Origin: Pseudomonas fluorescens Q2-87
Lineage (GTDB): Bacteria > Pseudomonadota > Gammaproteobacteria > Pseudomonadales > Pseudomonadaceae
Length of the DNA stretch: 64,000 nucleotides
Direction: 5' to 3'
Assembly: GCF_000281895.1 (NCBI RefSeq)
Contig: NZ_CM001558.1
Location: 3,290,556-3,354,555 of the forward strand
Each line of letters begins with the position of its first letter. Position 1 is the first letter of the stretch. The notes beneath the pieces were generated by a model that was not told the DNA's origin, made no database searches, and was given only the letters and a program-made list of their open reading frames with translations. Shown piece after piece: positions 1-13,783 of the stretch. A program made the translations under genes and the position numbers.

Positions 1-708
1 GGTATGTTGCTGAATGATCTGTTGGACGCCGACTGGGACCAACAACATCATAATCCGCGGCCGATCGCCCTGGGCCTGGTCAGCCGCCAGCAAGTACGGT
101 TGGCCACGGCGTTGCTGCTGGTGCTGGCCGCGGCCTCGCTGCTGGGCCTGAGCCGGCTGATCGAGCAGCCGCACTGGCTGGTCGGCAGCGCCATCCTGCT
201 GGTGAGCTGCATCCTGGGCTACAACCTGCTGCACAAGAAATACGCCCACAGTGTCTGGCTGATGGGTGCCTGCCGCTCGGCGCTCTACCTCACCGCAGCG
301 GCAAGCCTGGCGGTGCCGGCGCAACCGATCTGGCTCTGTGCCCTGCTGCTGGGCGTCTACATCAGCGGCCTGACCTACCTGGCTCGCCAGGAACACCGCA
401 ACCAACTGATCAGCCGCCTGCCCCTGTTGCTGATGCTGAGTCCGCTCGCCCTGGCGATCTATAGCGACAACGTCTGGTTTTGGCCGGTGTTACTGATATG
501 GCTCGGCTGGTTGGGCTGGCATTACTGGCGCAACCTCGCCAACCCGCGGCAACGACAGGTCCGCGCCTTTATCGGCGCAGGCCTGGCGGCCCTGCCGCTG
601 TTCGATGCCCTCGTGCTGGCCGTGGCTGACCAACCATTGGGCAGCCTGCTCTGTGTACTGGTGTTTTTCCTGCTCCCTCATTTCCAGCGCTGGGTCAAAC
701 CAACATGA
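1..708 (+). CDS. eboC: UbiA-like prenyltransferase, EboC type (5' end cut by window)
   Basis: Integral-membrane protein of the UbiA prenyltransferase superfamily. The frame is open from base 1, so the N-terminus lies outside the window. The visible part starts almost at the first Asp-rich motif, NDLLDADWD (N-D-x-x-D-x-x-x-D), which normally sits 60-80 residues into the protein. Several hydrophobic segments follow (for example around residues 35-55, 60-75 and 105-120 of the visible part). I do not see a convincing second Asp-rich motif; the expected region reads LTYLARQEHRN, so catalysis is not assured. The stop overlaps the next start (ATGA). Followed by EboA, EboB, EboE and EboF homologues, which is why I call it EboC rather than another UbiA enzyme. 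In ebo clusters it is thought to act at the inner membrane; its substrate is unknown. Confidence 0.8.
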   Translation, partial: GMLLNDLLDADWDQQHHNPRPIALGLVSRQQVRLATALLLVLAAASLLGLSRLIEQPHWLVGSAILLVSCILGYNLLHKKYAHSVWLMGACRSALYLTAAASLAVPAQPIWLCALLLGVYISGLTYLARQEHRNQLISRLPLLLMLSPLALAIYSDNVWFWPVLLIWLGWLGWHYWRNLANPRQRQVRAFIGAGLAALPLFDALVLAVADQPLGSLLCVLVFFLLPHFQRWVKPT

Positions 709-1478
709 ACACGGACCTCACGGCGCAGGCATCGCCGGCCCTCCAAATGCGCCACGACTGCCTGAACACGCAACGCCAAAACTTCACCCATCCGCTCGAT
801 GAAATCGAACGGCGCTGGTGGCGTCAGGCCCAAGAGCAGCTTGCCCAACGCCCGGACGCCAACACCGCAGCGCGCTTGAGCAGCCAATGCAAACGCAACC
901 TCAAAGAGTGTGCGCTGCCCGACAGCGAGGGCTGGAGCAACGTGCAACTGGCGCGGGCATTGATGTTGGCCCAAGTGCTGGAGCAGCAGCCCCTCGGCGA
1001 ACAAGTGCCCTTGCTACGCCAGTTGTTCCTGTGGGGCGACGATCAGGAAAAGATCGCCACCTTGAAAGCCCTCGATTGGTTCGATAGCCGTGGGGTGTGC
1101 GTCGACCTTGCGCTTCAGGCCGGGCGCACCTGCAACAGCCAGGTGTTCGCCGCCCTCGCCCTGGACAACGCCTACCCGTCGCGTCATTACGACGAACGAG
1201 CCTTCAACCAACTGGTGTTGAAGGCGCTGGGCATGGGCCTCGATGTGCGGCGCCTGGTCGGCCTGCCGCACCGACAAGGCGTCACCCTCAATCAATTGGC
1301 CCTCGACCTGCTGGACGAACAACTCGCCGCCGAACGAACGGTGTCCGCCGGCTTGCCCCACGTGATCGCCTTCGACCTGCTGAGCCCGGCGCAACGTCAG
1401 CGCCTGGCCGGCCTGAGCCAGCAACAACGCTTGCCGCTGCAATGGCGGGTTCACCTGGACGGCCCTTCGCCGAACTGA
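705..1478 (+). CDS. eboA: EboA domain-containing protein
   Basis: A 257-residue soluble protein with no signal peptide or membrane segment. It is helix-rich; the central stretch with NVQLARALMLAQVL, LFLWGDDQEKIATLKALDWF and AFAALALDNAYPSRHYDERAFNQLVLKALGMG-type sequence is typical of EboA family proteins as I recall them. It is translationally coupled to the UbiA gene by a 4-base overlap and lies 38 bases before the TatD gene. EboA has no known enzymatic activity; genetics in cyanobacteria place it in a cluster needed to deliver a scytonemin precursor to the periplasm. The family call rests on sequence style plus the unmistakable neighbours. A HEAT/ARM-like helical scaffold is also possible. 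Confidence 0.78.
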   Translation: MNTDLTAQASPALQMRHDCLNTQRQNFTHPLDEIERRWWRQAQEQLAQRPDANTAARLSSQCKRNLKECALPDSEGWSNVQLARALMLAQVLEQQPLGEQVPLLRQLFLWGDDQEKIATLKALDWFDSRGVCVDLALQAGRTCNSQVFAALALDNAYPSRHYDERAFNQLVLKALGMGLDVRRLVGLPHRQGVTLNQLALDLLDEQLAAERTVSAGLPHVIAFDLLSPAQRQRLAGLSQQQRLPLQWRVHLDGPSPN

Positions 1479-1516
1479 TGCCCCGCCCGTCCCTGCCCAT
1501 ACGACGAGGATTCACC

Positions 1517-2401
1517 ATGCTCAAGTACTTCGACCCGCACATCCATATGGTCAGCCGCACCACCGACGACTATCAGAACATGGCGGCCGCCGGCATCACC
1601 GGGATCATCGAGCCGGCTTTCTGGCAGGGCCAGGCCAGGACCAGTGTCGGCAGCTTCATTGACTACTTCGACACACTGCTGGGCTGGGAGCGTTTTCGCG
1701 CCAGCATGTTTGGCATTCATCACTTCTGCACCATCGGCCTGAACCCCAAGGAGGCCAACGACCTGTCGGTGGCCAATGAGGTGCTCGAGATACTGCCGCG
1801 CTACCTGGTGAAGGACGGTGTGGTGGCAGTGGGCGAAATCGGCTACGACGACATCACGCCGGAGGAGGATCGCTTCCTCGCCGCTCAATTGGAGCTGGCC
1901 CGGCAATTCAATCTGCCGGTGCTGGTGCACACGCCGCACCGCGACAAGATCGGCGGTACCAAACGCACCCTTGCGGTCATTCGCGAGGTCGGTATCGCCG
2001 AACATCTGGTGATCATCGACCACCTCAATGAACTGACACTGCCCCTGGTGCTGGACAGCGACTGTTGGCGCGGCCACTCCATCTACCCCAACACCAAGAT
2101 GTCGGAACAGCGCATGGTCGCCCTGCTGCAGCAGTACGGCACCGAAAAAATGGTCGTCAACAGCGCCGCCGACTGGGGCATCAGCGACCCGCTCAAGGTG
2201 CCCAAGACCGGCCAGGCGATGCTGACGGCCGGCTTCAGCGAAGCCCAGGTCGAGCAAGTGCTGTTCCATAACCCGGTGGACTTTTTTGCCCAGAGCGGCC
2301 AGTTGGACAAAGCCTTGGTCGGCACGCCCCTGCCTATCGACCAGCGGCGGCAGTGGCAGGAAAACTCGGCCCTGCGCGGCCAGGAGCCGGTGATCAAATG
2401 A
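1517..2401 (+). CDS. eboB: TatD-family metal-dependent hydrolase, EboB type
   Basis: A 294-residue TIM-barrel amidohydrolase-type protein. The start at 1517 is chosen because GAGGA lies just upstream and the protein opens with MLKYFDPHIHMVSRTTDDY, giving the HxH metal ligands at once. Further metal-site motifs are GLNPKE, VAVGEIGYDD (conserved Glu), LPVLVHTPH (His), HLVIIDHLNE (His) and the C-terminal NSAADWG (Asp). These correspond to the TatD set of ligands. The stop overlaps the next start (ATGA). TatD proteins include DNases and phosphoesterases, but this version belongs to the ebo cluster and its substrate is unknown. It has no signal peptide, so it acts in the cytoplasm. Confidence 0.85.
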   Translation: MLKYFDPHIHMVSRTTDDYQNMAAAGITGIIEPAFWQGQARTSVGSFIDYFDTLLGWERFRASMFGIHHFCTIGLNPKEANDLSVANEVLEILPRYLVKDGVVAVGEIGYDDITPEEDRFLAAQLELARQFNLPVLVHTPHRDKIGGTKRTLAVIREVGIAEHLVIIDHLNELTLPLVLDSDCWRGHSIYPNTKMSEQRMVALLQQYGTEKMVVNSAADWGISDPLKVPKTGQAMLTAGFSEAQVEQVLFHNPVDFFAQSGQLDKALVGTPLPIDQRRQWQENSALRGQEPVIK

Positions 2402-3627
2402 GCGCTGCCATGGGTTGGACTGCCACGCAGATCGGTTATTGCAGCAACGTGCACCCGACCCATGACCTGGGCGGGCTGCGTGCATCCATCGACCGGCATT
2501 TCCAGACCGTACGAACCCTGCGCGGGCTGGACAGGCAGGACAGCGGAATGTGGATCAGCGCCCGCGCCGCCGCCGAACTCCAACACGCCTCGGCACGCAC
2601 CGACTTCCTCGACCTGCTGCAACGCAGCGGGCTGCGCCTGACCTCGCTCAACGGGTTTCCCTACGGCCAGTTTCACCAGGGCGCAGTGAAAGCCGACGTC
2701 TACCGGCCCAGTTGGGCCGCCCCCCAGCGGTTGGCGTACAGCATGGACCTGGCCCGGTTTCTCGCCCAGGCCCTGCCAGCGGACTGTCACCAGGGGGTGA
2801 TCTCCAGCGTGCCGCTGGGCTACGCCGCCCATTGGAGCCCGACGTTGCAGCAACAGGCCGAGCAACAACTGCGCGAGCTCACCGCCGCGCTGGCCCGGCT
2901 GCAACGGGAGACGGGCAAGAAAATCCTGGTCTGCCTGGAGATGGAGCCCGATTGCGTGCTGGAAAACACCGACCAAGCCATCGCCTTCTTCCGCCACTGG
3001 CAGGCCATGGACCCACACCATGAACATCTGGCGTTGTGCTTTGACGTCTGCCATCAGGCGGTGATGTTCGAAAACTGCTATGAATCGCTGGCCCGGCTGC
3101 GTCAGGCCCAGGTCCCCATCGGCAAGATCCAGCTGTCCAACGCCCTGATCTGTCGCCTGCCTCAAGATGCCCAGCGCCGCGAGCACGTACTCAAGACATT
3201 GAGCAGCTTTGCCGAGCCGACCTACCTGCATCAAGTGAAGGCACGCGATGGCCAGTCCCCATTATCGGCCTGGCCGGACCTGCCCGCAGCCCTGGATGAG
3301 CATGAGAATAACCAGTTTTCCCACCCCGAATTGAGGATTCATTTCCACATCCCGCTGTTCAGCGAGCAATTGCTGTTGCCGGAACTCAGCGGCAGCCAGA
3401 TTGCCCTGTCGCAGACCTTCGACTTCCTCGCGGACCATGGGGATTTTCGCCCGGTACTCGAAGTGGAAACCTACAGTTGGGGCGTCCTGCCCAGCCAGTT
3501 GCGCCCCACCACCGAGCACGCTCAACTCCAGGGAATCGTGGCCGAACTGCGTTGGGTCGAAGAGCAACTACGGCAGCGGCAGTTGCTGCAGCCCCATGGG
3601 CTGGAGGCCTGCGCCGATGTCCTCTGA
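2398..3627 (+). CDS. eboE: EboE-like sugar-phosphate-isomerase/epimerase-fold protein
   Basis: A 409-residue cytoplasmic protein. The start at 2398 overlaps the preceding stop and has CAGGAGC upstream; it gives MSAAMGWTATQIGYCSNVHP, whose GYCSNVHP is characteristic of the EboE/xylose-isomerase-like family. Potential metal ligands follow: LVCLEMEPDC (Glu), LALCFDVCHQA (Asp, His), GKIQLSNALIC, RIHFHIPLF (His) and VLEVETYSW (Glu). This is the usual TIM-barrel layout of sugar-phosphate isomerases. It is in the ebo operon and overlaps the eboF start by 11 bases. The physiological substrate is unknown; the family is found in scytonemin and other ebo clusters. Confidence 0.82.
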   Translation: MSAAMGWTATQIGYCSNVHPTHDLGGLRASIDRHFQTVRTLRGLDRQDSGMWISARAAAELQHASARTDFLDLLQRSGLRLTSLNGFPYGQFHQGAVKADVYRPSWAAPQRLAYSMDLARFLAQALPADCHQGVISSVPLGYAAHWSPTLQQQAEQQLRELTAALARLQRETGKKILVCLEMEPDCVLENTDQAIAFFRHWQAMDPHHEHLALCFDVCHQAVMFENCYESLARLRQAQVPIGKIQLSNALICRLPQDAQRREHVLKTLSSFAEPTYLHQVKARDGQSPLSAWPDLPAALDEHENNQFSHPELRIHFHIPLFSEQLLLPELSGSQIALSQTFDFLADHGDFRPVLEVETYSWGVLPSQLRPTTEHAQLQGIVAELRWVEEQLRQRQLLQPHGLEACADVL

Positions 3628-5071
3628 ACAGCCTTGTCAGCCGCTGCTGCTGATTAACGTGGTCGGTCTGACGCCCGCCTTGCTCGGGGATGCGACGCCG
3701 CACATCAACGCCCTGTTGAAGACCGCAAAAATGGCCACGTTGCAGCCGGTGTTCCCGGCCGTCACGTCTACGGTGCAGGCCTCGATCCTCACCGGATTGC
3801 CGCCATCGGAGCACGGCATTGTCGGCAATGGCTGGTATTTGCGCGATCAGGCCGAAGTGCGTTTCTGGCTGCAACCCAACGCGTTGATCCAAGGGGAAAA
3901 GGTCTGGCAGACCATCAAGCGCCAGCGGCCCGGGTTTCGCTGCAGCCAGTTGTTCTGGTGGTACAACATGTATGCGGATGTGGACGCTGCCATCACCCCG
4001 CGACCGCACTACCCGGCTGATGGCCGCAAGGAGTTCGGCCTGTATTCGACGCCGGCCTCGTTGCACGAGCGTATCGAACAGCAGATCGGCAAGTTTCCCT
4101 TCCCGGGCTTCTGGGGCCCGGCGGCCGGCATCGCCTCAAGCCGCTGGATCGTCGACTGCGCCATCGCTGAATTCCAGCTCGACCGCCCCGATCTGCAATT
4201 GATCTACCTGCCCCACCTCGACTATAGCCTGCAACGCCTGGGGCCCGATCACCCGTCGATCGCCGACGAGGTGCGGGCCATCGACAGTGAGGTGGGCCGT
4301 CTGCTCGCCTTTGCCCAGGCCCAAGGCGCGGCGGTGATGCTGCTGTCCGAATACGGGATCGAGGCCGTCACGCAGTCCATTTCCATCAACCGAGTGTTGC
4401 GGGCCGAAGACCTGTTGCAGGTGCGCCAATCATTGACCTGGGAATTGCTCGATCCTGGTGCCAGTGCGGCCTTTGCCGTGGCCGATCATCAGATCGCGCA
4501 TATCTACGTGAAACAGGCGCAAGACATACCGCGTGTCAAGGCGCTGTTGCAGCGCCAGAGCGGCGTCGAACGGGTGCTGGATAAAACCGAGCAACGGGCC
4601 TGGCAGCTTGATCATCCTCGCAGCGGTGAGCTGGTGGCCGTGGCCGCAGCCGGTTACTGGTTCGATTACTACTACTGGTTCGACGATCGCAAGGCCCCGG
4701 ATTTTGCCCGCACCGTGGACATCCATCGCAAGCCGGGCTACGACCCGCTCGAGCTGTTCGTCGACCCGGCCATTCGCTTCCCGAAATTGAAAGTGGCGCG
4801 CCGCCTGCTGCAGAAAAAGCTCGGCTTTCGCTACTACATGGACCTGATTCCACTGGACACCCGCCTGGTCCGCGGCAGCCACGGTCGGCTGCCCGCGAGT
4901 AAAACGACAGGCCCGCTGCTCATCACCAATTGTGATCTGCCGTTGCCACAGCACCTTGCGGCCACGGCGGTGAAGCAACTGCTCCTCGAACATTTCCTGG
5001 GGCACCCTCATGCCGATACGGCGAATGCCAAGGAGCTTCCATGCGGCGAGCCATTTCCATCACTGTTCTAA
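3617..5071 (+). CDS. eboF: Alkaline-phosphatase-superfamily protein, EboF type (nucleotide pyrophosphatase/phosphodiesterase-like)
   Basis: A 484-residue protein beginning MSSEQPCQPLLLINVVGLTP at 3617, inside the end of eboE. The N-terminus holds the nucleophile region PVFPAVTSTVQASILTG (Thr/Ser in the superfamily nucleophile position), followed by PSEHGIVGNGWY. Later come LIYLPHLDYSLQRLGPDH (Asp and His ligands) and MLLSEYGIEAV, where the usual D-H ligand pair reads S-E-Y-G. The layout matches type I phosphodiesterase/nucleotide pyrophosphatases. No signal peptide is visible, so a cytoplasmic site is likely. Its 3' end overlaps the next gene by 31 bases. The true substrate in ebo clusters is unknown. 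Confidence 0.8.
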   Translation: MSSEQPCQPLLLINVVGLTPALLGDATPHINALLKTAKMATLQPVFPAVTSTVQASILTGLPPSEHGIVGNGWYLRDQAEVRFWLQPNALIQGEKVWQTIKRQRPGFRCSQLFWWYNMYADVDAAITPRPHYPADGRKEFGLYSTPASLHERIEQQIGKFPFPGFWGPAAGIASSRWIVDCAIAEFQLDRPDLQLIYLPHLDYSLQRLGPDHPSIADEVRAIDSEVGRLLAFAQAQGAAVMLLSEYGIEAVTQSISINRVLRAEDLLQVRQSLTWELLDPGASAAFAVADHQIAHIYVKQAQDIPRVKALLQRQSGVERVLDKTEQRAWQLDHPRSGELVAVAAAGYWFDYYYWFDDRKAPDFARTVDIHRKPGYDPLELFVDPAIRFPKLKVARRLLQKKLGFRYYMDLIPLDTRLVRGSHGRLPASKTTGPLLITNCDLPLPQHLAATAVKQLLLEHFLGHPHADTANAKELPCGEPFPSLF

Positions 5072-6180
5072 GTGCCCTGGCCGGTTTGGCCCAGGCACAG
5101 AACGCCAATAACTTCAATTGCAGCAACTTCCTGCAATTTGGAGCCGACATCAACACGACCCGGAAGGCGTTTACCGACAGCCCCGAGACCATGGCCTGGA
5201 ACTGGTTCGTCTGTTTGAACCAGTCCGACGCCAAGGGTTACAGCCGTCAGTGGGAGCTGTTCAAGCCTTCCGATCAGGTCTATCTGGCCAATGGCGCCAA
5301 CCCCGGTTCGTATGACAGCCGCATGAAGCCACCGAGCGAGGTGCTCAGGCAAGCCAAAGCCCTGGGGCTGGACCCGAACCGTCTCCTGCATAACATCAAC
5401 GCCGTACAGCAGGTCGACGGCCTGAGCCTGGCCATGGGCGGCGCTGCCGTGCCTGCCGCACAACAAGGTCACGTAGTGCGCTTTCAACTGCTGATGGGCC
5501 AGGACACCTACGACTACATCGTAAAAACCAATGTCTACAACGTGAATGGTCAAGAGGCCCTGACGAGCAACCTGAACTTTCCGGTCACGGCCTGGGAGTT
5601 GAAAACCGCCTGGCTGTGGATCGGCACGGACGCGAACTACAAGAAGCAGCTGGAAAAAGATGGCTACTACGTGGCCCAGGCCTACTACGCCGTGGGCACC
5701 GGGTACAAGGTCGGCTATGCGGCGTTGAGCGGTTTGCATGTGGTCAACAAACTGAACCCCGACTGGGTCTGGACCACCTTCGAAAATCTCAACAACCCCA
5801 AGTACACCGTGAACAAGGACTATCCGCCTGCGCCGATGACAAACAGCACCGGGCCGACAGCGGACGCCAAACCGGTCAACGCCCGGTTCCAGGCCAATAA
5901 CCCGACGCTGTCGAAGTACCAGTTGATCGGCGTGCAATTCCAGCCCATTACCCAGGTCCTGGCTAACTCGCAGTTGGAGTCGGCATTCCAGGACACTTCG
6001 TCCTGCCTGGCTTGCCACGGCACCGCCGCCTACTCGAAGAACAACGGTTACTTCAGTTTCGCCATCCCGACCTCAGGCGGTCTCACCTATCCCACTACAC
6101 CGCTGCCGGAGAAGGCCTTCGTCGGCTACAAAAAATTGGATTTTGTCTGGTCGTTGAAACACGCCCAGTGGCAACGCTAA
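5041..6180 (+). CDS. Secreted c-type-haem (CxxCH) protein, copy 1
   Basis: A 379-residue protein with a Sec signal peptide, MRRAISITVLSALAGLAQAQ, cleaved near residue 20. One haem-binding motif, CLACH, lies near residue 323. The bulk of the protein is an unrecognised Tyr/Asn/Trp-rich domain containing TMAWNWFVCLNQ and FPVTAWELKTAWLW. AAGGAG precedes the start, which lies 31 bases inside eboF. It is paralogous to the protein at 9579-10880: both share W-x-x-F-x-x-L-N near the N-terminus, a 'GA-PG' segment, a central WELK/VKSSW segment and a C-terminal CxxCH. It is probably a periplasmic redox partner for whatever the ebo/VioB-like proteins handle. I recognise no assigned function. Confidence 0.8.
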   Translation: MRRAISITVLSALAGLAQAQNANNFNCSNFLQFGADINTTRKAFTDSPETMAWNWFVCLNQSDAKGYSRQWELFKPSDQVYLANGANPGSYDSRMKPPSEVLRQAKALGLDPNRLLHNINAVQQVDGLSLAMGGAAVPAAQQGHVVRFQLLMGQDTYDYIVKTNVYNVNGQEALTSNLNFPVTAWELKTAWLWIGTDANYKKQLEKDGYYVAQAYYAVGTGYKVGYAALSGLHVVNKLNPDWVWTTFENLNNPKYTVNKDYPPAPMTNSTGPTADAKPVNARFQANNPTLSKYQLIGVQFQPITQVLANSQLESAFQDTSSCLACHGTAAYSKNNGYFSFAIPTSGGLTYPTTPLPEKAFVGYKKLDFVWSLKHAQWQR

Positions 6181-6192
6181 GGAGAGCACGAC

Positions 6193-8574
6193 ATGAGCAT
6201 ATTGAATTTCCCCCGCATCTACCTCAACGGCGAGATGTTCTGGAACCCGCCGACGGCCAACAACAATGACATGTTCCCGCTGTACGACGCGGTCAACATG
6301 GACATCAACTGGCCGTTCGTGAAGCACTTCGGCATCGACCCCCACAATGCCCCCGACAGGCTGATGCCATGGACTCTCTCGACGCAGTACATGGCCGACA
6401 TGCCGATCTATGTGCAACAAGTGCCAGGCAATATCAATCCGAAGCATGACCCGTACATGCCCGCCGAATGGGATCTGTTCGGTGATAACGGTTGCGGTCT
6501 GGTGAACTACGGGAAAACCACCTCGACCATCATCGGTGGCGAGCTGCAGGCCAATACCTATATCGATCAGGATTCGCTGATCGGCGCGCAATACCACTTA
6601 CTCGGCAGCCCTCTGGGCAGCTCCGCCCCGACCCCGGCGCGCTTCGTGGACATCAGCCCATGGCAGAACACGTTCACGGCATTGTATTTCGACAAACTGG
6701 TGCTGGGGGATACGTCCTGCGGCCTGACCCTCAACCGCAAGTATCGGATGATGGACCGCTTCCTGAACTTCAATTGGGGAGCCCTGGGTAGCCTGGTGAA
6801 CATCAGCACCACCTGGCAGACCTGCTTTCCGAAGGAGAACCTGGAATGGGCGATTGGCAGCTCGCGTCTGCTGGCCAACCTCCAGCAGCAGATGACGCAG
6901 CAAGGGGCACAGGGTCTGATGTTCCGATTTTCAACCTACCTGACCTGCTACGACAAGAACGGTGTGTTCAACGATTACACGCAGCGCCCCAACACCCGTT
7001 CCAACCACCCGGACATCATGGCGAAAGTGCGTGACCTGTACAGGGAAGGTTTGAACAACGTCAACCAGATTTTCTTCAACCCCGCCTACAGCCGCACCTC
7101 GGCGGTGCTCGGTCTGTGGCTCGCCAACGAATACCCCACCGCTCCCGCCGGGGTCCGCCTGGTACCCACCCAGCCAATCTCGGTCGTTCAACCGGGTCCC
7201 GATGGAAATCATAGTGTCCCATTGGGGGTGATCTCGGCGCAGATCAACGGTAATACCCTGTCGCTGGACCTGAGCAACACGTTCCCGTGTTATCCCGTGG
7301 ACCCCGCAGCCGACATCCTGGTCCCTGAGAAATTCCACGCCGGAGACTACCTGTTGGGCGTGCGCCAGAAGGGACGGTTCATGGCGGGGATCGGCTTCGG
7401 CTTCGATAAATACCAGCAATCGGCTTTCGAGCTACGTTCAGGCATCCTCGACCTCACGCTCAACCCCGAAGCCAAGGCACTGCTGCAGTCCGGTCCTCTG
7501 CTGCTGCAACAGCGCATCCCGGCCGCCCCTCCGAAGATGGCCGCCGGCCAGCAACTGTGGACCGCGGAAGTCATCGAGAGCGGCAGCTTCATCGATGTCG
7601 GTGACCGCAAGACGCTGAGCATCATGGTGCAGAAAAATGGTCTGCCGGCCGTCAACACCACGCTGTATGTGGCGGAGTACGGCAATCCCTACATGGTGAC
7701 CAGCAGCCATTACTACCTGGCTTTCAGTAATGCGGCCGATTTCACGCTGTTCTACGACTACCCGTCGGCCCGTATCAACAATACAGCCAACCTGCCGCAG
7801 TTCATCGACGCACCTAAGGTCGCCCTCTATCGAAGCACCGGCAGCGGTCGCCGGCTGACCGACCTGCAGGACGTGCCCGAACCCGTGGGCAACCCGGTCG
7901 GGTATCAAGACTTCCTCAGAACGTCCGGTACCCCGGTCGCCGTCGACCTGCGCCCCTGCCTGGCCTTCGACAAAGGCATCAATGGCACCGGTACACTGCA
8001 GGACAAGAAGGCCAGCAGCGTCAGTTACTCCTACGCCGTCATCACCACCAACGCCCAAGGCATCGCCCAGATAGGCTGCCGGGCAGTGGCGCCAGGCTTC
8101 CCTACCTTGCGCTTCTTCGTGCAGGAGAACGGCAAAAAACCGGCCATTCCGTTCAGCTTCCCGATCACCCAGGCCTACGTCGACTTCCTCGCACCGATAC
8201 GGGTGCTGCCACTGGACATGCAGTTGCAACAGGACTTCATCGACACTTGGAACGCCATCTACGAGAAGACAAACGCTCCAGAGCTGCTGTGGGACAAGTT
8301 CATTTATCCAAAGATCCTGCAGACCTTCTATTACCTGTACCCCATCATGAACAAGTTCATGCCGCTCAATTCCCGGACGCGCGTGGAGGGCGCAGTCGAC
8401 CAATTGATCTTGCTGATCAGCAAGGATTACCAGGACCAGAGCACCCTTGCGATGCCCATCACCCGGGACATGTCCCAAAGCCGCCGCGCCGTCCTGGAGC
8501 TGTGGGCCAAGCGCCTGGTGAAATTCAACTATCCGCCCAAGAAACTCAGCATGAGTGACTACAACGGCCTTTGA
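6193..8574 (+). CDS. VioB N-terminal-domain-like protein, copy 1 (lacks the ferritin-like part)
   Basis: A 793-residue protein with no signal peptide. AAGGAG lies before the ATG. It opens MSILNFPRIYLNGEMFWNPP followed by TANNND, strongly recalling the start of violacein enzyme VioB (MSILDFPRIHFRG...TANRD). Later landmarks also fit VioB: VLGLWLANEYPTAPAGVRLVP, INGNTLSLDLSNTFPC and the late segment FIYPKILQTFYYLYPIMNKF...TLAMPITRDMS. In VioB the iron-binding ferritin-like half comes after this last segment; here the protein ends about 30 residues later, so that half is absent. A paralogue lies at 10884-12695. Role unknown: a scaffold, substrate-binding or modified pigment enzyme. The VioB relation is from recall, not alignment software. 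Confidence 0.75.
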   Translation: MSILNFPRIYLNGEMFWNPPTANNNDMFPLYDAVNMDINWPFVKHFGIDPHNAPDRLMPWTLSTQYMADMPIYVQQVPGNINPKHDPYMPAEWDLFGDNGCGLVNYGKTTSTIIGGELQANTYIDQDSLIGAQYHLLGSPLGSSAPTPARFVDISPWQNTFTALYFDKLVLGDTSCGLTLNRKYRMMDRFLNFNWGALGSLVNISTTWQTCFPKENLEWAIGSSRLLANLQQQMTQQGAQGLMFRFSTYLTCYDKNGVFNDYTQRPNTRSNHPDIMAKVRDLYREGLNNVNQIFFNPAYSRTSAVLGLWLANEYPTAPAGVRLVPTQPISVVQPGPDGNHSVPLGVISAQINGNTLSLDLSNTFPCYPVDPAADILVPEKFHAGDYLLGVRQKGRFMAGIGFGFDKYQQSAFELRSGILDLTLNPEAKALLQSGPLLLQQRIPAAPPKMAAGQQLWTAEVIESGSFIDVGDRKTLSIMVQKNGLPAVNTTLYVAEYGNPYMVTSSHYYLAFSNAADFTLFYDYPSARINNTANLPQFIDAPKVALYRSTGSGRRLTDLQDVPEPVGNPVGYQDFLRTSGTPVAVDLRPCLAFDKGINGTGTLQDKKASSVSYSYAVITTNAQGIAQIGCRAVAPGFPTLRFFVQENGKKPAIPFSFPITQAYVDFLAPIRVLPLDMQLQQDFIDTWNAIYEKTNAPELLWDKFIYPKILQTFYYLYPIMNKFMPLNSRTRVEGAVDQLILLISKDYQDQSTLAMPITRDMSQSRRAVLELWAKRLVKFNYPPKKLSMSDYNGL

Positions 8575-8636
8575 CGATTTCGCCCAGGATCACCGGGTGG
8601 CGAGCCCGCCGCCCGGCACTGCACAGGAGTGTCGAT

Positions 8637-9560
8637 ATGAAAGCCTGCATTTTGAACCGACTGTTGTTACTGATCCTGTTGTTCAGTCCGGGGCTCTTTG
8701 CCCAACAGGACAGCGGCGTGGTGTACTTCACCATGGGCGTGCACAACACCGAGGGTTGCAACGAACAGAACGGCAATTGCATCGCCAAACGTACCCCGGG
8801 CGAGCCTTCCGATCCGTTTTTCCCGGCGGCCTGGATCAGCGACTGGACCATGTACCGGGTAATGCACAACTACGAAAAAAACCCGCCGCCCTACAGCAAT
8901 CCCCCGGCCACGCTGACACCGGCGGACTACACCGTCTCCCGGGGCACCAGCTATTACGACACGGCTTATATCCCGGCCGATGGCGACGGCTTCGGGGCGA
9001 TGATGGAGCACTACGAGAAATACTGCCTGCCGATCTTCCCGATCAAGAACAACAACTACACCTGCTCCTTCGTGTCCCTGGGCAACAAGGCGTACTTCCT
9101 GACCTACCCGCAAGATCGCCCCAAGGACATGCCAGCCTGCTGCATGTTTTCGCCGATGAATCATCCGCCGCGGCAAGACTTCATCCAGCACCTGCCCTAC
9201 AGCGCCGCGCGCAGCAAAAACCTCGATGGCAGCGTGCAGGCCTACGCCCTGGACCTGGACTCGCCGCAAGGTCCGATCCTGTTCGGCTATGCCTTCTACA
9301 AGAAAATGTCCGGACAGCCGCTTTACCGGCAGCCCCAGTCGTTCTTTTTCTCCGGTGACGCCAGCGTCGCCAACGCCCCTATCGTCAGCCAGAACTACAC
9401 CCACTTTCGCATCGCCAAACCCGACCCGGCCAAGACCTGGGCGCAGGTGGCCGCGATGTGCCCGGCAAATCCTCCGCCCTGCCAACTGTTCGAGCCGCCG
9501 GCTTCGCAGGGCAACGGCCAGAAGGCCCAGTGGAACAAGCTCATGCAGCGCAAACCCTGA
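8637..9560 (+). CDS. Secreted hypothetical protein between the two modules
   Basis: A 307-residue protein that I do not recognise. The start at 8637 (AGGAG seven bases upstream) gives a clean signal peptide, MKACILNRLLLLILLFSPG, with cleavage after LFA-Q. The mature part is Cys-rich (for example EGCNEQNGNC, KYCLPIFP, YTCSF, PACCMFS, AMCPANPPPCQLF), suggesting disulfides in the periplasm or outside the cell. It has no CxxCH haem motif. It contains many aromatic residues (YDTAYIPADGDGFGAMMEHYEKY). It has no paralogue in the window, unlike its neighbours on both sides, and is spaced 62 bases after copy 1 of the VioB-like gene and 18 bases before haem protein copy 2. Confidence 0.72.
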   Translation: MKACILNRLLLLILLFSPGLFAQQDSGVVYFTMGVHNTEGCNEQNGNCIAKRTPGEPSDPFFPAAWISDWTMYRVMHNYEKNPPPYSNPPATLTPADYTVSRGTSYYDTAYIPADGDGFGAMMEHYEKYCLPIFPIKNNNYTCSFVSLGNKAYFLTYPQDRPKDMPACCMFSPMNHPPRQDFIQHLPYSAARSKNLDGSVQAYALDLDSPQGPILFGYAFYKKMSGQPLYRQPQSFFFSGDASVANAPIVSQNYTHFRIAKPDPAKTWAQVAAMCPANPPPCQLFEPPASQGNGQKAQWNKLMQRKP

Positions 9561-9578
9561 CCCCGTCGAAGGATCGCC

Positions 9579-10880
9579 ATGAAAACCACAATCCGTTTCA
9601 CCCTGATACTGCTGGGCCTGGCCAGCCTGCCGGGCCTGGCACTGGAGCAGTCCCAGCAAGCCACGCCGTCAGCGCTCGCCACGAATCTCAATTGCCAGCC
9701 TCCCAGCTCAGCACCAACCGCCACAGCCAGTCAGGACCTGTTCGATCAATACAGCTGGCAGCTGTTCATAGCGCTGAACTGGCCCGTCCAGGCGGGGCAG
9801 CGCGGCGATCCCGACTGCAGCAAACAACCGGGGGACCCTGGCTACACCGTCTGGCAGACCTACAAGACCGTGGAAGAAATCTTCCTGCCACAGGGGGCTG
9901 ATCCAGGCCCATGGAACACCCCGCAGCTTGCCAAGAGCCTGGGCATCATCAACATCGCCGCGCTGAAAAACAGCAGCCAGGTGAATGCCGTCGACCAAGC
10001 CGTCGGCGGCTGGCTGATCGACCAGGCCGGCAACCCGACGTACTACGACATCTCCGCCAACGAAACCTCCTACAACTACATCGTTGCCAACAGCTTCTAC
10101 AACGCCGCGGTGGTTTCCAAGGCCAGCAACATCCTCTTCCCCAATGGCGTTATCGAGGTCAAATCGAGCTGGCGCATCCTCACCCCCCATGACAACGCCA
10201 GCCACTACCTGACCATGCTCGCCCGCGTGGCCACGTTCGACGACCAGGGCCAGCGCACGGGTGTCACCGAGGCCTACCTGGGCCTGGTGGGCCTGCACAT
10301 CATCACCAAGGTGAACGGCTATCCGCAGTGGATCTGGTCGACGTTCGAGCAGATCGACAACGTCCCATCCAAGGCACTGGTGAACGGTCAATGGGTTGAC
10401 CAACCGACTTCCGGCATCGCCTATTCCTACTTCAACGCCACCGCGCCCCCTGCCACCCTCAACCAATCGCCCTGCGACTGGCAGACCCAAGGCACACATC
10501 TTGTCTGCGTGCCGAAACCCGGCACCACGTTCCAGACCCCGAACCCGCTCAACCGGTTTACCCCGATCGCTGACATCACCAATGGCGTCAACAGCCGTTA
10601 CCGCAGCGACCCGGGGCTGCAACGAAGCGCCTTGAAGTACTACCAGCTCATCACCACCCAGCGCCCGTTGATGCCGGACAATCCCAGCAACCCGCTGGGC
10701 CAGCCGACACCCGCCCTTTCGGCCAACGTGACCATGGAAAGCTACATCCAGCCCAACAGCAGTTGCATGAATTGCCACTCGATGGCGACACCGGTCAAAA
10801 GCCCCTACAAGGCCGATTATTCCTACCTGTTCAAATTCGCCAACGCACCTGCCGCCAAAACCACCCAGGACGGGAAATAG
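9579..10880 (+). CDS. Secreted c-type-haem (CxxCH) protein, copy 2
   Basis: A 433-residue paralogue of the protein at 5041. The signal peptide is MKTTIRFTLILLGLASLPGLALEQ. Then come YSWQLFIALNWP, EIFLPQGADPGPW, a central SYNYIVANSFYNAAVV...IEVKSSWRIL segment and the haem motif CMNCH near residue 398. GAAGGA precedes the ATG. It is longer than copy 1, mainly through an insertion between the WIWSTFEQ segment and the CxxCH. It lies directly upstream of the second VioB-like gene (3 bases), exactly as copy 1 precedes the first. A periplasmic electron-transfer role is inferred from the haem motif only; the main domain has no function I can assign. Confidence 0.8.
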   Translation: MKTTIRFTLILLGLASLPGLALEQSQQATPSALATNLNCQPPSSAPTATASQDLFDQYSWQLFIALNWPVQAGQRGDPDCSKQPGDPGYTVWQTYKTVEEIFLPQGADPGPWNTPQLAKSLGIINIAALKNSSQVNAVDQAVGGWLIDQAGNPTYYDISANETSYNYIVANSFYNAAVVSKASNILFPNGVIEVKSSWRILTPHDNASHYLTMLARVATFDDQGQRTGVTEAYLGLVGLHIITKVNGYPQWIWSTFEQIDNVPSKALVNGQWVDQPTSGIAYSYFNATAPPATLNQSPCDWQTQGTHLVCVPKPGTTFQTPNPLNRFTPIADITNGVNSRYRSDPGLQRSALKYYQLITTQRPLMPDNPSNPLGQPTPALSANVTMESYIQPNSSCMNCHSMATPVKSPYKADYSYLFKFANAPAAKTTQDGK

Positions 10881-10883
10881 ATC

Positions 10884-12695
10884 ATGAGCATTCTCAATGG
10901 ACCACGGCTGAACTTCTGGGGCGGTATCCGCACCGACGTCAGCGTCCCGAACAACTCGCGCACCATTGCTTATGACGGCAATCCGGCATGGCCGCTCTTC
11001 GACCTGACCACCTCGACCGTGGCGCCGAGTGCCCAGTCCTGCACCGACGATCAACTGAACGACATCATCAATACCCCCCAAGGCAAGGACAAATACACCC
11101 TCGGTGGCTGGAACCACTACGGGCAGCACGTCGTCGACATGCAGAACGCCTTGATCAGCTCCCAGGGCAATCCAGGCAGCATCAACACCACCGGCGACCT
11201 GGTGGGCCAGGCCGTGTACCTGCTCGGCTCGGTGGATCCGGTAACCGGCCAGGGCCCCGTTTCCGGCCCGATGATGGTGGACCTGGACCCCACCGCCTCG
11301 ACAACGACCCAGATCTTCGTCGGCGGCCTGCAGATCGGTGGCAACGACAACATCCAATTGCTGATCCGCAGCAATACCGTGTGCAACAGTTTTGACGTGG
11401 AGGGACGTGTGCTGTTGCCGGCGAAAATGGACGCGCCAGGATCGTTCCACGCCAGCGGCACGTTCCAGTTGACGTTCCCCTTGAGCAGCATCGTCAGTTG
11501 GAACCAGAACAGCAGCGGCCTGCGCTCGATCATCCAGGCACCGGGCGCGACGGGCATCGTCCTGCGTTTCGTCATGTTCGAAATGTGCCCCACGATGACC
11601 ACCGCCCAACTGGACGCCGATTACGCCGCCGGTAAATACACCCCCAACCCCAGCATCGGCCGTGTCATCGGCACGTTGGCCCCGGCCTTCGCCGACGAGC
11701 CGCTGAACTGCCAGCCGGGCCGGCAGTTGGTCAACCAGGATACGAGCAATGCCGGCTATGCCGAGCTAGGCACCAACGGCTACCTGAGCATCGACATGGT
11801 GAATGTCATTCCGAAGGAAACCTTCAGGGCCGTCAGGGACGACATCACCAGCCCTATCGGGCCCAACGCGAACTATGGCCCCGTGACTATCAGCGCAGGC
11901 ACTACCGTGTTGGCCACCCTCGAGCCGACCAGCTCTCCCCTGCTCGACTACTACGTCTATGGCGGTATCGTCGACCTGCCCATGACCGCCAGCCAGAAGC
12001 TGGCGGCACAGAGCACCGTCCTGACGATCAGTGCGCCTGGCAAGGTTGCCAACACCACTTTGCAAGCCACGGAATCGCCCTATCGGCTCTACGCCGACCA
12101 GCGCAACGTCTACCTGGAGGACTACGCCAACGGCCTGTCGATCACCCTTCAAGTCAGATTCCTGGGCGGCCCCGTCCCCGCCACGACCGAAATCGGCCTG
12201 CAAGCGTCGGCGATTGCATCGTATGACGAGCCGCAATATTGGGACTTCCTCGATTTCCCGGCCTCGCTGAGCGTAACCGCCGGTCAGCTCTCAGTCAGTT
12301 TTCCAGTGAGCCTCAAGTCCAATAGCGCCGCCCAGGCGGGTTTCGTCGCCCTGACCTGCACGGCCAATGGTCTTGAAAGCAGCAGTTATTTCACCAACTT
12401 TCGCAAATACGCGCAGGCCGACTTCGGCATTCCCAAGGGCACCATCATCACCTGGCCGCTGATGTACCCCAACGTCCTGCGTTTTCACTACCTGGCGTTC
12501 CCCGCCATGTCGCGCTACATCCCGCTGAATCAGCCCGACGCCATCATGGGCGCGAAGAACCCGATCCTCGCCCGCACCTCCGATGCCTACAAAGGCACTA
12601 CGCTGTTCATGCCCGTGGTGCGCTCGATGTCGCCTTGCCAGCGGGCACTGCTGCGGGCCTATCTCACCGGTGAACCGTGGCAAGCACCGCAATGA
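10884..12695 (+). CDS. VioB N-terminal-domain-like protein, copy 2
   Basis: A 603-residue cytoplasmic protein that starts MSILNGPRLNFWGGIRTDVS, matching the opening of copy 1 and of VioB. Further VioB-like landmarks are GQAVYLLGSVDPV, MMVDLDPTASTTTQIFVGGL, IGRVIGTLAPAF, YLSIDMVNVIP, YYVYGGIVDLPMT, YRLYADQRNVYLEDYANG and the final LMYPNVLRFHYLAFPAMSRY...TTLFMPVVRSMSPCQRALL. It stops just after that segment, before the point where VioB would begin its ferritin-like domain. It is about 190 residues shorter than copy 1. Start codon 3 bases after the haem-protein stop. Function unknown; likely shares substrate or complex with copy 1. Confidence 0.75.
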   Translation: MSILNGPRLNFWGGIRTDVSVPNNSRTIAYDGNPAWPLFDLTTSTVAPSAQSCTDDQLNDIINTPQGKDKYTLGGWNHYGQHVVDMQNALISSQGNPGSINTTGDLVGQAVYLLGSVDPVTGQGPVSGPMMVDLDPTASTTTQIFVGGLQIGGNDNIQLLIRSNTVCNSFDVEGRVLLPAKMDAPGSFHASGTFQLTFPLSSIVSWNQNSSGLRSIIQAPGATGIVLRFVMFEMCPTMTTAQLDADYAAGKYTPNPSIGRVIGTLAPAFADEPLNCQPGRQLVNQDTSNAGYAELGTNGYLSIDMVNVIPKETFRAVRDDITSPIGPNANYGPVTISAGTTVLATLEPTSSPLLDYYVYGGIVDLPMTASQKLAAQSTVLTISAPGKVANTTLQATESPYRLYADQRNVYLEDYANGLSITLQVRFLGGPVPATTEIGLQASAIASYDEPQYWDFLDFPASLSVTAGQLSVSFPVSLKSNSAAQAGFVALTCTANGLESSSYFTNFRKYAQADFGIPKGTIITWPLMYPNVLRFHYLAFPAMSRYIPLNQPDAIMGAKNPILARTSDAYKGTTLFMPVVRSMSPCQRALLRAYLTGEPWQAPQ

Positions 12696-12727
12696 AAGCG
12701 TCCCCTTTTTGTTCATGGAGAGAACCT

Positions 12728-13783
12728 ATGCCCGCGCCCCTGCATATCCCCGCCCAGCCGGGCGAAACCTTGCGCCCGAGCACAATCATCGCCGAGGACC
12801 TGCTGAACCCTCGTGGCCTGTGCCTGGAGGCCGACGGCAGCCTGTTGTTCACCGAAGCCGGCACGGGGCTGCCCGACCAGCCCTTCAGCGGCCGCATCAG
12901 TCGATTGCGAGCGGATCCGCACCAACCGGGCGCCTATCTGCCCCGCGAAACAGTCGCCGATGGTTTTCGCGCCATGAACATGCAGGCGCGCATGATGCGT
13001 GATGAAATCATGGGCGTGTCGGACGTCGCTTTCGGTGACGGGCGCTGCCTGGTCAGCCAGACCGATTATGTCGAGGGTTCCAAGCTGCTGGACCTGCAAT
13101 ACACACCGCCCGAACCGGTGTTCCATAGCCGTGGCAACCTGAATGCGCTGTGCTATCACCCGACCCGCCGCAGTTGGCTCGCGGTCAAGCCCGATACCAA
13201 TCAGTTGGTGGAGTTCGCCACCGGTCAGGTGGAGCGCGTGTTGGCCGAACTGCCCGAACTGGACCAAGGCCAGGAAGCCGTTCCCGTTACGCTGGTGTAT
13301 GAACCGGCGACGGACGCCGTGCTGATCAGCCTGTTCTCGGGAGAACTGCACGACGACCCGGCCCGCAAGGGCATCGACTTCGCCGAGAAGGCAGGCCAGG
13401 TGGTTCGGGTATGGCCCGCCACCGGCGAGATCGACGTCTTGATACGCGGCCTGCAATTGCCCACCGGGTTAGCGCTGCGCCCCGACGGGAACCTGTTGGT
13501 GCTGGAACTCTGCGCGGGCCTGCAACAGCCCTTGCCGCCCGACTGGAATGGCGAACCCTTGCATGGCGGCTTTACCCGCTTCAGCGGGCGATTGCTGGGC
13601 TGCAACTTGCCAACGGCCCAGGTCACGGTGCTCGCCCGCGGCTTGGATACCCCTTCCAACCTGTGCCTGCTGCCGGACGCGGTATTGATCAGCGAAGGCA
13701 TGGGGCTGCTCGGTCGCCCCCTGCCGACCCCAGATGAAAAGGTAGTGCCATTAAGAGGCAGGCTTCGTCGGGTGCAGCTCTGA
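12728..13783 (+). CDS. ScyD/ScyE-like (NHL/SMP-30-type) beta-propeller protein
   Basis: A 351-residue protein; the ATG at 12728 follows GGAGAG. Repeats with the pattern of NHL/SMP-30 blades are visible: LLNPRGLCLEADGSLLFTEA, GRISRLRADPH, ALCYHPTRRSWLAVKPDTN, TLVYEPATDAVLISLFSGE, GLQLPTGLALRPDGNLLVLE and GLDTPSNLCLLPDAVLISEG. The Leu-x-x-Pro-x-Gly-Leu openings mark successive blades. ScyD/ScyE-type proteins of this fold belong to scytonemin clusters, which also carry ebo genes, so the association here is notable. No signal peptide is evident, unlike cyanobacterial ScyD/E that act in the periplasm. It is the last gene of the operon, facing the convergent DUF3604 gene 37 bases away. Lactonase or oxidoreductase activity cannot be told apart by eye. 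Confidence 0.68.
   Translation: MPAPLHIPAQPGETLRPSTIIAEDLLNPRGLCLEADGSLLFTEAGTGLPDQPFSGRISRLRADPHQPGAYLPRETVADGFRAMNMQARMMRDEIMGVSDVAFGDGRCLVSQTDYVEGSKLLDLQYTPPEPVFHSRGNLNALCYHPTRRSWLAVKPDTNQLVEFATGQVERVLAELPELDQGQEAVPVTLVYEPATDAVLISLFSGELHDDPARKGIDFAEKAGQVVRVWPATGEIDVLIRGLQLPTGLALRPDGNLLVLELCAGLQQPLPPDWNGEPLHGGFTRFSGRLLGCNLPTAQVTVLARGLDTPSNLCLLPDAVLISEGMGLLGRPLPTPDEKVVPLRGRLRRVQL

Follow-up and report, generated by a model that had tools for sequence, protein, structure and literature searches.

The window analyzed here, 64,000 nucleotides of the Pseudomonas fluorescens Q2-87 genome (contig NZ_CM001558.1), opens with an ebo gene cluster of 11 genes on the + strand, running from position 4 to 13783 with short gaps or overlaps between them; the window edge cuts the first, eboC. 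The initial annotation of this DNA had described one uninterrupted run of EboC, EboA, EboB, EboE and EboF, two CxxCH proteins, two proteins resembling the N-terminal part of VioB, a "Cys-rich orphan" and a ScyD/ScyE-like propeller. We confirmed that all of these genes are present on the + strand, overlapping or closely spaced, and the identities given were nearly all correct, those of the propeller (family model NF033206) and of the VioB-like proteins (TIGR04492 and profiles of our own) included. Outside the view of that annotation, the operon begins about 2 kb 5' of the window, with a gene that fuses a VTT (DedA) domain to EboD and brings the operon length to about 15.8 kb. Coordinates prefixed L002 belong to a genome region that includes this upstream flank; window base 1 is L002 14001. 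The features are as follows, with VBN denoting a VioB N-terminal half.

L002:11945-13818, about 2 kb upstream of the window: VTT(DedA)-EboD fusion (PF09335, 3.2e-10; PF01761, DHQ-synthase domain, 6e-36)
4..708, + strand: EboC, UbiA-type prenyltransferase-like, 3' part (PF01040, 1.2e-10)
705..1478, + strand: EboA (NF035938, 9.7e-40, over cut-off)
1517..2401, + strand: EboB, TatD-like metal hydrolase (PF01026, 3e-11, queried from 1535, and position)
2398..3627, + strand: EboE, TIM barrel (NF035939, 2.9e-123, over cut-off)
3617..5071, + strand: EboF, type I phosphodiesterase (PF01663, 4.2e-62, and position)
5041..6180, + strand: CxxCH-1 (cyt1), putatively exported and P460/c'-beta-like (paralogue of CxxCH-2, from which the fold is inferred; signal peptide by eye)
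6193..8574, + strand: VBN1, VioB N-terminal half without the ferritin-like domain (TIGR04492, 6.1e-5)
8637..9560, + strand: putatively exported protein of predicted VioE/LolA fold, the former orphan (predicted fold, signal peptide)
9579..10880, + strand: CxxCH-2 (cyt2), putatively exported and P460/c'-beta-like (modelled fold)
10884..12695, + strand: VBN2, second VioB N-terminal half (TIGR04492, 4.7e-5)
12728..13783, + strand: ScyD/ScyE-like propeller (NF033206, 5.8e-16)

The two CxxCH proteins are paralogues (25% identity, E 7e-23), as, more distantly, are VBN1 and VBN2 (E 4e-10), so that a duplicated [CxxCH, VioB-half] module flanks the gene for the exported orphan. EboA and EboE are firmly assigned from sequence. 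The full EboC open reading frame (ORF), L002:13809-14708, encodes 299 residues, starts 5' of the window and scores 85 bits against NF035940, under the cut-off of 250. EboB, which starts at ATG 1517, and EboF matched no Ebo-specific model and take their names from superfamily and position. With these qualifications EboA, B, C, E and F stand together here as in an ebo cluster. The VTT domain of the EboD fusion clears the PF09335 cut-off (41 bits against 33.9), as in DedA/VTT membrane proteins of the UptA-like kind; here the domain is joined to EboD. DedA proteins have been described, in passages of the literature, as undecaprenyl phosphate flippases, and an EboC relative is described in a passage of PMC9235831 as farnesylating quinolines. 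In three relatives VTT-EboD is a single frame of 631 to 640 residues, but in this assembly it aligns to two different frames. The eboD gene is thus present with its frame interrupted, which means either an assembly error or a damaged, perhaps inactive, cluster in this strain.

The cluster belongs to a known class, the EDB-type ebo clusters of Pseudomonas. In the passages of Klicki et al. 2018 (PMC6282210), the EDB cluster of P. fluorescens NZI7 is a full ebo cluster whose other ORFs carry signal peptides; the same combination is found here, with eboD interrupted, the likeness being one of description and not gene by gene. According to the same passages, insertions in the eboA, eboD or eboE homologues made NZI7 edible. 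A passage of a review (PMC9655573, citing Zhou, Vergis and Mahmud 2022) reports that Escherichia coli expressing the NZI7 EDB cluster yields indole compounds, that the clone turns external tryptophan into them, and that Caenorhabditis elegans is moderately repelled by indolyl-oxoacetamide and indole-3-aldehyde; in that account, indole products and nematode repellence are reported for NZI7 only. We therefore reject the cluster as an unknown system: "undescribed metabolite system", as the initial annotation had it, is too strong, since the literature already covers the EDB cluster along with its effect on nematodes and its indole products. The indolic compound that it proposed is in keeping with the review's account, and its interpretation overall is partly supported. 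In the titles, abstract openings and passages searched, we found no published description of VioB-half, VioE-like or P460-like genes of EDB, although the primary EDB papers, which lay outside that search, may describe some. The word VioB is absent from the two ebo papers checked for it.

The Nostoc punctiforme ebo system, in which Ebo is described as moving the scytonemin monomer to the periplasm (PMC6282210, in part), has the Ebo proteins and a ScyD/ScyE-family relative in common with this cluster. It differs in that EboD is here fused to VTT and VBN, CxxCH and VioE-like genes are added. The propeller, most likely starting at ATG 12728, scores 58.9 bits against NF033206 (cut-off 80) and is a relative rather than a member by cut-off. 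No signal peptide is visible in it by eye, whereas ScyE is periplasmic as reported in a passage of PMC6282210. In general family scans no cluster gene was named ScyA, ScyB or ScyC (no search aimed at these was made), and, in a difference from the violacein pathway, the same scans assigned none to the flavin oxidases or monooxygenases.

VBN1 and VBN2 each score about 21 bits against TIGR04492 (cut-off 1250) and are not full VioB. Their relationship to its N-terminal region comes from profiles: a VBN2 profile built from an 18-sequence alignment matched 4/4 VioB proteins (E 3.8e-14 to 3.8e-7); the same four were matched at 1.3e-43 to 1.6e-34 by another profile, grown with VioB left out. At best the match covers two stretches, residues 1-450 and 506-584 of 1005, so VBN resembles the region of violacein VioB within residues 1-584. 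Both VBN proteins lack VioB's ferritin-like C-terminal part and a visible signal peptide. A six-frame search of the genome found no PF12902 ferritin-like domain; where VioB has its ferritin-like half, here a CxxCH protein adjoins VBN instead. Elsewhere the missing part does occur at cluster loci. A VioB profile from residue 601 onward found six ORFs in its first pass (E 7.1e-7 to 7.9e-4; two of the six are one gene in overlapping loci) and more on iteration. Pfam scans of two of these ORFs identified both as PF12902 (1.9e-49 and 6.1e-68). A ferritin motif pattern matched 8/26 ferritin-like ORFs and, found in so few, was not used as evidence.

The exported orphan has a predicted VioE/LolA fold and belongs to a widespread family, so the label "orphan" no longer suits it. 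The orphan would share this fold with violacein VioE, differing by its signal peptide. Profile comparison of the orphan with VioE (hhalign) was not significant (probability 0.8%, p 0.07); the alignment is one 15-column stretch, apparently in register with the structural match. A sequence search of solved structures with the orphan family profile returned nothing at E 1.

The predicted fold of CxxCH-2 is P460/c'-beta-like over nearly the whole small domain, with the CxxCH motif near the C-terminus, the combination expected of cytochrome P460 and cytochrome c'-beta. The CxxCH proteins are much longer (379 and 433 residues) than those cytochromes, and for neither did Pfam give any family at E 0.01, PF16694 included; elsewhere in the same genome a Pfam P460 domain does score over cut-off (G000:C1:3668196-3668567). 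Searching solved structures by sequence with the CxxCH family profile gave nothing at E 1. Comparison with P460 profiles, for which 2/9 P460 loci were usable, aligned 19 columns around CxxCH with probabilities of 19.6 and 48.4%. A post-CxxCH motif occurs in 10/111 ORFs, too few for it to be used as evidence. The P460/c'-beta fold is an enzyme or gas-binding type, not a classical electron carrier, and cytochrome P460 is marked by a lysine-haem cross-link. The CxxCH proteins are accordingly not accepted as demonstrated electron carriers, and the role of electron carriers that the initial annotation gave them is disfavoured by the predicted fold.

Signal peptides of three window proteins were judged by eye, and those of the families by a crude signal test, which scored as exported 99/111 CxxCH, 68/84 VioE-like, 2/139 VBN and 2/26 ferritin-like ORFs.

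The association of these genes extends well beyond this strain. We scanned genome contigs with the orphan family and took the best 80 of 108 confirmed stretches as loci. The gene order of the window, from the 3' part of eboD to the propeller, recurs in 40/80 (Pseudomonas, Azomonas, Rheinheimera and one "Pantoea" record), the locus edge cutting the remainder of eboD in those 40; in some of them one gene is split over two frames (L019, L031 and L038 by this count). The record titled Pantoea sp. (L027), with a full Pseudomonas-type cluster, represents either a transfer or a mislabelled genome. In another Pseudomonas locus, L028, eboC directly precedes the VioE-like gene and eboA to VBN1 were not found between them, possibly a deleted version.

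VBN is present in 73/80 loci, a CxxCH gene in 53/80 and a ferritin-like gene in 22/80, with both in one locus and neither in six. At least one gene was labelled as ebo in 60/80 loci and two or more in 53/80, leaving 20/80 with none, of which 10 exceed 15 kb. The ferritin-type loci are arranged in several ways: VioE-like, VBN, ferritin-like, VBN, ferritin-like, ebo (L066, L075, L080); ebo, VBN, ferritin-like, a 266-residue gene, VioE-like (Photobacterium); and VTT, VioE-like, VBN, ferritin-like with ebo not nearby (Lysobacter). The 266-residue gene is glyoxalase-like in L044, where it lies between the ferritin-like and VioE-like genes (L044:9141-9938). The ebo-free version is that of the Lysobacter-type loci L062, L063, L068, L069, L070, L071 and L081; a VTT gene adjoins the VioE-like gene in nine loci without ebo. 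In two Chromobacterium loci (L072, L082) the VioE-like gene has no VBN close to it; true VioB (L086) is encoded in the genome of L072, as is a VBN-ferritin pair at a separate locus (L091).

In a set of 298 genomes from the genus we found EboE in 37, VBN1 in 38 and the orphan in 31 (one weak, G065). Every genome with EboE has VBN1 (37/37; Fisher p 1.5e-46, kinship ignored), a co-occurrence that exceeds chance. The one further genome with VBN1, G205, is a draft assembly in about 1150 contigs; there eboF adjoins a CxxCH gene and VBN1. Orphan and EboE occur together in 29 genomes; of the eight EboE genomes without the orphan, seven carry one [CxxCH, VBN] pair and the eighth carries two. The smallest version seen is thus ebo with one [CxxCH, VBN] pair and the ScyD/E-like gene, the VioE-like gene being optional. 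In a phylum sample of 398 genomes EboE and the orphan were each found in three, two shared and one each alone, counts too few for a judgement on co-occurrence at that level. The initial annotation would have abandoned its reading had these families not co-occurred outside this strain; they are found together in many species. In a tree of 76 VBN rows (from 46 hand-picked fetched loci, the window's two and four VioB), partner type (CxxCH, ferritin-like, none or VioB) changes three times, against 26.7 in shuffles; the root and the placement of VioB are unsure because of long branches.

Violacein-like proteins, one halved and one apparently exported, together with predicted haem proteins, suggest a pigment-like pathway across the inner membrane. 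We tentatively favour a violacein-like machinery split by that membrane, giving the route as a whole somewhat less than an even chance. Cytoplasmic VBN proteins would bind or shape a tryptophan-derived intermediate of the indole-pyruvate type, which EboA-F and the VTT domain would hand to the periplasm, perhaps prenyl-tagged by EboC. There the VioE-like protein may shelter the hydrophobic intermediate in the manner of a chaperone, while the P460-like proteins would oxidize it, which we assume to substitute for the step tied to VioB's ferritin-like half; relatives in which VBN has a VioB-type ferritin-like gene as its neighbour would represent an alternative version. What results would be an indolic deterrent of grazing that stays mostly with the cells. 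Two observations weigh against this route: the predicted locations put the membrane between VBN and the neighbouring CxxCH protein, and the general family scans assigned no cluster gene to a tryptophan-oxidase family.

The same genes might instead serve a lipid. EboD, EboC and the VTT domain could synthesize a prenylated or cyclitol lipid and flip it; the VioE/LolA-fold protein would then take it to the outer membrane in LolA-like fashion, the haem proteins would modify it, and the indoles seen in E. coli would be side products. We consider this unlikely: the VioB half, its VioB-type ferritin-like partner and the ScyD/E-like propeller all indicate aromatic or indolic pathways, and the EDB products reported in the review passage are indoles (PMC9655573). 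The conversion of external tryptophan described there, and the signal peptides that the crude test finds on most CxxCH proteins, would also suit a simple periplasmic breakdown, in which indole-3-aldehyde and indolyl-oxoacetamide arise when the haem proteins directly oxidize external tryptophan or indole-pyruvate, ebo and VBN being accessory. That scheme seems to us slightly less likely again, for it explains neither the loss of repellence upon ebo insertion in NZI7, as reported in part of PMC6282210, nor the tight coupling of EboE to VBN1. That VBN and CxxCH are structural or stress proteins traveling with ebo, with no metabolite role, is very improbable: some database names are Ig-like, and a solved-structure search with the VBN2 profile gave a weak Ig-like match as its one hit (5hqh, E 0.014), but most of VioB residues 1-584 are covered by homology to VBN, and VBN is found in the neighbourhood of VioB-type ferritin genes.

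The cluster may also bear on the origin of VioB and VioE. We can imagine, while thinking it rather unlikely, that these two represent a fused, cytoplasmic offshoot of a broader modular trans-membrane indole-coupling pathway against grazers, in which a VioB half works with a ferritin-like or P460-type haem partner, a VioE-like chaperone stands outside the inner membrane, and an ebo/DedA exporter feeds it. For the widespread ebo genes, the coupling to VioB halves, an exported VioE-fold protein, P460-like proteins and a DedA-type domain yields concrete single-gene predictions about the ebo cargo and the steps outside the membrane.

An Rfam scan of the window gave no family at or above its cut-off. 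In the upstream flank, L002:9069-9764 on the - strand encodes a 169-residue protein (internal start) with 41% methionine and 16 cysteines.
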